Positions 25,843-28,315 of a stretch of 64,000 bases of DNA are shown piece by piece (positions within the stretch are counted from its first letter, which is position 1; every line of letters starts with the position of its first letter). Made by a program: the position numbers and the translations under genes. The notes under the pieces are model-generated. The model had not been told where the DNA came from, ran no database searches, and saw nothing but the letters and a program-made list of their open reading frames with translations. The stretch covers positions 1 to 64,000 of the forward strand of contig JABHAT010000029.1 in the NCBI GenBank assembly GCA_018674175.1, in the 5' to 3' direction. The stretch comes from Gammaproteobacteria bacterium (lineage in GTDB: Bacteria > Pseudomonadota > Gammaproteobacteria > Poriferisulfidales > GCA-002705445).

Positions 25843-26410
25843 GGAAAAAATAATGTCGAATTCGTTCCCAGAGCTAGGATTTTTTGTAATAGATTTAGTT
25901 TTATCTTTTTTAATATTAGTATTTACATTAAGAATACTTTTGTCTATGAGCAGCGCTAGTTCAAATAACCCAATAACACAGTCAATAATAAAAATTTCTA
26001 AACCGGTGAGGTCTTTATTACTATTTATACCAAATATTGGAAAGTTTGAGGTTTCAAGTTTTGCAATAATATTTATTTGCCATTTTCTTAATATCTATTT
26101 TCAAAGTTCTGTTTTAGGAAGTGATATTATTTTAGAAAAATTAGTTTTATTTTCTTTTAAAAGCTCAATATTTAGTTTATTGAATGCATTGACAATAATT
26201 TTTATTATTTTAGCAATCTCGAGTTGGTTTGTGCAATCACCACAATCAAATAGAAATCCAGCTTTAGATATAATATATCAAATATCTAATTCTATTTTAT
26301 TTTATATTAAAAAGATAATTCCTACTTCAGTAGGAATAATCGATTTTTCAGTAATAATTGCACTTGTTTTAATACATTTCATAAAAAATTTCATAAATAT
26401 AATTTTGTAG
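25826..26410 (+). CDS. yggT: YggT family membrane protein
   Basis: TLRILL, SWF..NPALDIIYQISNSIL; follows proC. Confidence 0.88.
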   Translation: MIYQNKEKIMSNSFPELGFFVIDLVLSFLILVFTLRILLSMSSASSNNPITQSIIKISKPVRSLLLFIPNIGKFEVSSFAIIFICHFLNIYFQSSVLGSDIILEKLVLFSFKSSIFSLLNALTIIFIILAISSWFVQSPQSNRNPALDIIYQISNSILFYIKKIIPTSVGIIDFSVIIALVLIHFIKNFINIIL

Positions 26411-26453
26411 CTGTATTTGTATATTTTTTTAAATTGGCGTATATTGCATTAAA

Positions 26454-26499
26454 CACCGATTTGAAGTCAGCTTGCGGGTGGGAAGTAACAGCTAAAGCG
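26454..26499 (+). promoter_or_regulatory. SAM-II (SAM-alpha) riboswitch aptamer candidate upstream of metX
   Basis: CACCGATTTGA...CAGCTTGCGGGTG...AACAGCTAAAGC matches the SAM-II consensus as recalled (GAUUUGA, GCUUGC, GCUAAA) with flanking CACC/GGTG stem. Confidence 0.8.
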
Positions 26500-26549
26500 A
26501 AAATTTTTAAAGCAAAGCCAAATTCCCCGCATTTTTTTTTATGACTTCA
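26462..26549 (+). promoter_or_regulatory. Predicted riboswitch expression platform (alternative extended hairpin)
   Basis: TGAAGTC (26462-26468) complementary to GACTTCA (26543-26549); GCGG..GGAA (26474-26484) complementary to TTCCCCGC (26523-26530), with a T-rich run after it. Confidence 0.5.
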
Positions 26550-26560
26550 GGTCTTATACA

Positions 26561-27706
26561 ATGGTCATTATAATGCAAAATAAATTGAAAGATAATTCTG
26601 TTGGTATTGTTCTTCCAAAAACAGTAGAGATTAAGTATGGTCTTCAGCTTGATTGTGGGAAAAATTTAGAAAATTTTTCTTTAACCTATGAGACTTATGG
26701 AGAACTCAACAGTAAAAAAGATAATGCCATACTCATTTGTCATGCTTTATCTGGAGATCATCATGCTGCTGGTTATCATAGTGTTGCTGATAAAAAACCA
26801 GGTTGGTGGGACTCATGTATTGGCCCTGGAAAACCATTTGATACCAATAAGTTTTTTGTGGTCTCACTAAATAATCTTGGAGGTTGTAAGGGCTCAACTG
26901 GGCCAAATACAGTAGATAAGAAAACAGGAAATGAGTTTGGGCCAGACTTTCCAATTATTACAGTTAATGACTGGGTAAATAGCCAGAAGTTACTTGCAGA
27001 TTATTTAGAAATAGATACATGGGCATGTGTCGCTGGTGGCAGCTTAGGAGGAATGCAGGCTCTTCAATGGGCTATAAGCTACCCTTCTAAAATAAAAAAT
27101 TCAATAGTTGTAGCTTCCGCAGCAAAACTATCAGCACAAAATATAGCTTTTAACGAAGTGGCGAGACAAGCAATTATTACAGATCCAGATTTTCATGATG
27201 GTCGTTATAATAATTTTGGAGTTGTCCCAAAAAGAGGACTCAGTATTGCAAGAATGTTAGGACACATAACATATTTGTCAGATGATTCTATGAGGCAGAA
27301 GTTTGGAAGAGATTTAAGAGAAGGGAAATTACATTTTGGATATGATGTAGATTTTCAGGTTGAAAGTTACTTAAGATACCAAGCTCAAGCTTTTGTAGAA
27401 AGATTTGATGCAAACACATATTTATTAATGACAAAGGCCTTAGATTATTTTGATCCAGCAAAAGAATATAATGGGGACTTATCTATAGCTTTTGAGAATA
27501 CACAATCAAGATTTCTTGTTGTATCTTTTACAAGTGACTGGAGATTTTCATCATCAAAATCACATGAAATAGTTAAGTCACTCGTTAAAGCAAGAAAAAA
27601 TGTATCGTACTCAGAAATCGAATCAAATAATGGGCATGATGCTTTTTTAATGCCAATACCAAACTACCTTGGTGTTTTGAAAAATTTTATAGATAATATT
27701 TTATAA
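26561..27706 (+). CDS. metX: Homoserine O-acyltransferase MetX
   Basis: [47 protein letters not shown]. Confidence 0.97.
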
Positions 27707-27718
27707 TATAGAGAAACA

Positions 27719-28315
27719 ATGAATAGAAAAGATTTTAAAATAATAGCTGAGTGGATACAAAAAGACTCAACAGTATTAGATTTAGGTTGTGGTGATTCAA
27801 CCCTATTAGATTATCTTGTATCTAATAAAAATATTTCAGGATATGGCTTTGAAAAAGATATTGATGAGGTCCAGGAATCTATTAAGAAAAATATTAATGT
27901 AATTCAGTCTGACTTTAATACCGGATTAGCAGAATATATTGATAGTAATTTTTTTGATTATTCAATCATGACTCAGGCTTTACAAGAAAATAAAAATCCA
28001 GATCACATAATACTTGAAATGGTTAGAGTATCTAGAGAAGGAATAATAACTTTTCCAAATATGGGATTTTGGAAAAATAGACTTCAGTTAGGGCTTGGAC
28101 GTATGCCAATATCTAAATCATTACCGAATCAATGGTTTGATACTCCAAATATTCATTTATGTACACTCAATGACTTTGAGAAATTATGTGAAGATCTTAA
28201 AATCACTATCCTTGAAAAGAAAGTTTTAAATAATAGATATTCTTCAAACTTATTGCTAAAAATTCTTCCAAACTTTTTTGGAGAAATAGCTTTATATAGA
28301 TTTAAAAAATACTAG
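27719..28315 (+). CDS. metW: Methionine biosynthesis protein MetW
   Basis: SAM-dependent methyltransferase fold; VLDLGCGDSTLLDYL, FPNMGFWKNRLQLGLGRMP, PNQWFDTPNIHLCT. Confidence 0.96.
   Translation: MNRKDFKIIAEWIQKDSTVLDLGCGDSTLLDYLVSNKNISGYGFEKDIDEVQESIKKNINVIQSDFNTGLAEYIDSNFFDYSIMTQALQENKNPDHIILEMVRVSREGIITFPNMGFWKNRLQLGLGRMPISKSLPNQWFDTPNIHLCTLNDFEKLCEDLKITILEKKVLNNRYSSNLLLKILPNFFGEIALYRFKKY

Follow-up and report, generated by a model that had tools for sequence, protein, structure and literature searches.

A SAM-II riboswitch of a common proteobacterial subtype and its probable lineage-specific translational switch upstream of metX in a small-genome gammaproteobacterium

What is almost certainly a SAM-II riboswitch of a common subtype, predicted to bind SAM, precedes metX in the window (the whole 64,000-nucleotide stretch of DNA analysed here). 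We estimate at roughly two in three the probability that this subtype, common in beta- and gammaproteobacteria, drives a translational switch of metX by strand exchange that is specific to one lineage. The host is a gammaproteobacterium with a small, reduced genome. Control by SAM-II riboswitches is usually described as acting through terminators, or through a ribosome site hidden inside the aptamer. The sensor itself is already known, and the novelty lies only at the level of the expression platform. Comparative sequence analysis establishes the identity of the aptamer, its conservation, and the conserved complementarity between the aptamer and a distal arm of the leader.

Results

Locus and aptamer architecture

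The element lies between metX and a gene ending at position 26410, which from its context and appearance we take to be yggT-like. It is directly followed by the methionine biosynthesis genes metX and metW (Table 1), the kind of context by which SAM-II is recognised. The original prediction had metX start at 26561, where a second in-frame ATG is found upstream; we place the start at ATG 26573, since the leaders of relatives align from there and the spacing to a preceding GG is kept in 10 of 11 of them. Near the end of the gene preceding metX, a perfect 8-bp hairpin, ATTCCTACTTCAGTAGGAAT, is present at 26318-26337.

Positions 26454-26500 hold a complete SAM-II aptamer, composed of a 4-bp P1, GATTTGA (26458-26464), the pseudoknot P2 and GCTAAAGCGA (26491-26500). 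Within it, TGAAGTCA occupies 26462-26469, GCTTGC 26470-26475 and GGGAA 26480-26484. All the strings quoted in the original prediction were found where it had put them, including TTCCCCGC at 26523-26530 and GACTTCA at 26543-26549, and its short CACC/GGTG stem was confirmed as a 4-bp P1, the pairs of which covary in 50 SAM-II sequences of other lineages. All P2 pairs are formed in the window sequence. The T-A pair of P2, not part of the searched pattern, is found as U-A, G-C, A-U and C-G across lineages, and is paired in 102 of 122 sequences, against a mean of 57.7 and a maximum of 78 after shuffling. GATTTGA is invariant in alignment A1, but was demanded by the pattern that collected those sequences. 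The ligand-contact strings GAUUU, GCUUGC and GCUAAA are found in the window and in both Rfam SAM-II consensus lines, and their U's are presumably those that contact the ligand in 2QWY. Further downstream, at 26508-26517, a GCAnAGC motif recurs in many leaders of the genus; it complements the GCTTGC of the aptamer, and a third alternative pairing is possible there.

Table 1. Positions of the features of the metX leader and of the genes that follow it.
Feature	Positions	Strand	Evidence
Whole SAM-II aptamer, as scored by covariance model R1	26452-26500	+	51.5 bits, E=1.5×10−11
Helix P1: CACC 26454-26457 with GGTG 26477-26480, enclosing GATTTGAAGTCAGCTTGCG	26454-26480	+	sequence; P1 register as in other SAM-II RNAs
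GATTTGAAGTCA: L1 and start of the P2 5′ strand; also 5′ partner of the putative alternative (anti-sequestor) helix	26458-26469	+	
Pseudoknot P2: T26467-A26500, C26468-G26499, A26469 bulged, GCTT 26470-26473/AAGC 26495-26498, GC 26474-26475/GC 26491-26492	26467-26500	+	
TTCCCCGC (arm B): would pair with GGGAA 26480-26484 when no ligand is bound; GC 26529-26530 starts the sequestor stem	26523-26530	+	position kept in relatives
Proposed sequestor: 26529-26533/26572-26576 (over AUG) and 26541-26546/26563-26568 (over GG)	26529-26576	+	predicted, aptamer masked
Switching arm TGACTTCAGGTC, GACTTCA extended; pairs with 26458-26469	26542-26553	+	12 bp, p=0.002
GG, weak Shine-Dalgarno, 8 nt 5′ of ATG 26573	26563-26564	+	GG 5-11 nt before ATG in 10 of 11 leaders
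metX, homoserine O-acyltransferase (alpha/beta hydrolase)	26573-27706	+	Pfam alpha/beta hydrolase, 72.8 bits
metW, 3′ of metX	27719-28315	+	Pfam MetW, 220.6 bits

Identity and distribution of the subtype

At Rfam gathering thresholds, a tRNA was the sole match in the whole window. When a small stretch was searched, RF00521 (SAM_alpha) gave 12.2 bits for a cut-off of 36 bits, and RF01726 (SAM-II long loop) 13.5 bits for a cut-off of 44 bits; permissive E-values produced weak matches only, contradicting one another. SAM-V (RF01826) had no match with cmscan up to E=10, and this identity was dropped. The cmscan check proposed with the original prediction left both SAM-II models below threshold (12-13 bits), which reflects a limit of the Rfam model and not of the element: as most relatives in the class are likewise missed by RF00521, its failure here counts little against SAM-II.

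The RF00521 search of the element's own genome did not list the metX-leader element, and returned a different one instead, on contig C14 (3830-3904, minus strand; L001:1501-1575), with a sub-cut-off score of 30 bits. This second SAM-II-like element lies directly 5′ of an AlkB-like membrane hydroxylase gene, which is a second copy, 54% identical to the other one in the genome. The 5.2 kb contig may be foreign to the bin.

A search of named genomes with the core pattern yielded at least 120 loci, in beta-, gamma- and alphaproteobacteria plus a few others; 50 of these, none of them from the genus of the window, were used for building covariance model R1. R1 scored 51.5 bits on the window (E=1.5×10−11, the next-best match having E=1). 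Since one exact core pattern served to gather all 50 sequences and is also present in the window, the conserved core weighs heavily in this score; P1, the linker and the spacing make up its independent part. Two loci of the same set, L050 and L099, pass RF00521 with 45.6 and 38.9 bits, which ties the set to the known SAM-II family. The SAM-II identity is thus backed by the comparative evidence (R1, covariation and conservation), but not by the Rfam half of the test first proposed.

At E≤0.001, R1 matched 180 of the 369 genomes sampled across the class, taken in the GTDB sense as judged from the mixed beta- and gammaproteobacterial relatives, and RF00521 exceeded its cut-off in 14 of 143; the two figures can be compared only roughly, since sample sizes and kinds of threshold differ, but they are far apart. 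In practice, about one sampled genome in ten passes with the Rfam SAM-II model, whereas the subtype model finds SAM-II in about half. The expectation that a gammaproteobacterial context would be unusual was wrong, given this frequency and the fact that SAM-II was already listed in beta- and gammaproteobacteria (PMC2704228, PMC2258182). One 5.1 Mb genome (G264) has ten SAM-II matches by R1. Paired SAM-II aptamers, about 110 nt apart, were seen at L231 (G347:C57) and on G136:C37; at L231 the first aptamer is accompanied by a terminator, and the pair precedes what is by appearance an AAA-type ATPase gene. Tandem SAM-II arrangements are known, with 44 cases (PMC9481103).

In a study that used Rfam scans, Leyn et al. 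2014 described a “novel” metXZ RNA element 5′ of metXW in betaproteobacteria, and 5′ of metZ in Methylophilales and Nitrosospira (PMC4239095). Among the loci retrieved here, the SAM-II subtype stands 5′ of metX in many betaproteobacteria, and 5′ of a metZ-like gene in a methylotroph (L052) and in a Nitrosospira (L067). Since the same subtype precedes both kinds of genes in the matching betaproteobacteria, the orphan metXZ element is very probably this SAM-II subtype, the match being made by context and description.

Conservation in related metX leaders

Conservation in related metX leaders had been named beforehand as a test of the prediction, and the element was indeed kept. The exact core pattern occurs in 10 of the 11 genomes of the genus and in sister genus G011, and the reversed control pattern never. 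In all of these genomes the element stands 5′ of metX. In the genus, the best matches to the leader have 69-77% DNA identity over most of the stretch; in G011 and in three genomes of the class that are less closely related, conservation is confined to a shorter core. Genome G007 (98% complete) has neither the core pattern nor a metX orthologue, but only a 35%-identical paralogue. For L182, which belongs to a different family of this order, visual inspection 5′ of metX showed no SAM-II, and R1 found none in the genome.

An arm complementary to the aptamer

The alternative pairing originally proposed had two arms, which fared differently. The TGAAGTC/GACTTCA arm stood, and is kept as G-C, G-U or A-U in relatives. 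In the window GACTTCA extends to TGACTTCAGGTC, which forms with GATTTGAAGTCA an uninterrupted 12-bp helix of −16.5 kcal/mol, better than 500 of 500 shuffles. The arm is usually TGATTTCAAATT in the other leaders of the family, and it differs in sister genus G011. Over ten leaders, 110 of 120 arm pairs are kept; the ninth is G-C in the window, G-U in eight leaders and A-U in G010. Compared with dinucleotide-shuffled leaders, complementarity had p<0.1 in every one of the 11 leaders, and p≤0.014 in 8 of them, these p-values being non-independent since the leaders are related. The second arm, TTCCCCGC with GCGGGTGGGAA, is weaker: by itself it does not outdo shuffled sequences (p=0.71), although TTCCC, or its equivalent at a shifted position, recurs in the leaders of relatives.

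In two alphaproteobacterial metX leaders, L073 and L126, P1 likewise contains CACC, and a CTCCCCC or CTCCTCC further downstream is complementary to GGGTGGAG. Their expression platform is possibly similar to that of the window.

Predicted folds and proposed mechanism

Each leader was folded twice, once freely and once with P1 imposed and both pseudoknot strands masked, in imitation of bound SAM; such folds leave out pseudoknot energy, ligand energy and co-transcriptional order. When the aptamer was masked, all 11 leaders became less accessible around the AUG, and mean accessibility there went from 0.46 to 0.31. The mean loss was 0.15, versus −0.01 in shuffled leaders, for which the largest mean was 0.043. 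In the window, holding the aptamer folded brought the predicted exposure of the GG from 0.76 to 0.01 and that of the AUG from 0.84 to 0.02, because the two segments of the sequestor then pair as listed in Table 1. Taken alone, the energy of the sequestor hairpin is unexceptional in the window (p=0.116), whereas four relatives have p≤0.034. Accessibility barely changed in G001, G002, G010 and G011 (0.01 in the last); in the first three, almost no switch is predicted at equilibrium because the ligand-free ensemble already prefers the sequestor. The original prediction took the alternative pairing to be the gene-control switch, with no direction given; the folds suggest the arm hairpin as the ON state and a separate hairpin over GG and AUG as the OFF state.

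We propose the following mechanism. At low SAM, the aptamer 5′ strand GATTTGAAGTCA would pair with the arm TGACTTCAGGTC, and this anti-sequestor would leave the GG and AUG of metX single-stranded (ON). At high SAM, P1 and the pseudoknot P2 would form and consume the GATTTGAAGTCA strand, and the freed arm region would fold over the ribosome-binding site and AUG of metX (OFF). ON without SAM and OFF with SAM is the sign expected for a methionine gene. That SAM binds, that the switch runs in this direction and that control is exerted on translation are inferences.

Alternative explanations

In a first alternative, which we judge unlikely, a SAM-II riboswitch would control transcription, SAM altering an intrinsic terminator or the access of Rho before metX. 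Most retrieved SAM-II loci of the subtype outside the family are indeed followed by GC-rich hairpins and T runs. The window too has nine T (26532-26540) after TTCCCCGC, which could close a hairpin with GCGGGTGGGAA, and it is this T run that keeps termination under consideration here. Such a hairpin would however be expected when SAM is absent, which is opposite in sign to what a methionine gene requires. A search for a terminator-like short-loop hairpin over 26500-26573 found none, and among relatives the T run is not conserved in the leaders, nor is there a conserved terminator in the family.

Direct occlusion, with the ribosome-binding sequence inside P2, is the mode described for the metX SAM-II of the Sargasso Sea (PMC10907184), and use of a distant Shine-Dalgarno within the aptamer has been reported for the S. 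meliloti metA leader (PMC9373788). Either is improbable for the window, where the P2 3′ strand, AAGCGA, contains no Shine-Dalgarno, and where the start codon, 73 nt beyond the aptamer, is preceded by a GG of its own at a distance of 8 nt.

The aptamer could also be real and the downstream complementarity a product of chance, inherited in one genus and devoid of any role. Most arm pairs do change on one side only, as such a history would have it; variation lies mostly in the arm, since the genus has kept the aptamer strand nearly unchanged. Against this, complementarity beats shuffles leader by leader, including those with diverged linkers, and it was not seen in other SAM-II RNAs: on a fixed 110-nt stretch, p<0.01 was obtained for 7 of 10 family leaders, versus 1 of 112 SAM-II RNAs of other lineages. 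We hold an inherited coincidence to be a poor prospect.

Finally, the missed Rfam gathering score would fit an accidental similarity to a riboswitch, a negligible prospect given the R1 E-value and a position 5′ of metX conserved across genus and family.

Discussion

Translational control of metX by strand exchange is the reading that we prefer. As to its origin and novelty, we would give even odds to the following proposal: a distal anti-sequestor arm, which competes for the L1/P2 5′ strand and otherwise helps to cover the start codon and the ribosome-binding site, arose in a single gammaproteobacterial lineage with a reduced genome, where it replaced the terminator of relatives, and this platform is undescribed in the literature found. 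If true, an arm trading between aptamer and start site would show the same sensor rewired in a small genome. The natural variants of the leader are ready-made for testing.

Several known systems resemble the element. RF00521 (SAM_alpha, 2QWY) has the same P1 hairpin, pseudoknot P2 and GATTTGA, GCTTGC and GCTAAA strings, and is likewise found 5′ of metX; the window differs by its 4-bp P1, its 15-nt linker (mostly 18 nt in relatives) and an AUG 73 nt away. RF01726, the SAM-II long loop, has its core strings in common with the window. SAM-V (RF01826) has a similar ligand pocket and translational control, but differs in that the final 3′ pairing element is missing (PMC2704228). The metXZ element shares the position 5′ of metXW, a pseudoknot and an A-or-C consensus position, to be compared with GCTAAAG[A/C]G, and differs in being presented as novel and as having a terminator/antiterminator (PMC4239095). 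The S. meliloti metA SAM-II resembles the window in its translational control at a far-downstream start codon, but its Shine-Dalgarno is within the riboswitch (PMC9373788), whereas in the window it adjoins the AUG and a separate arm would do the switching.
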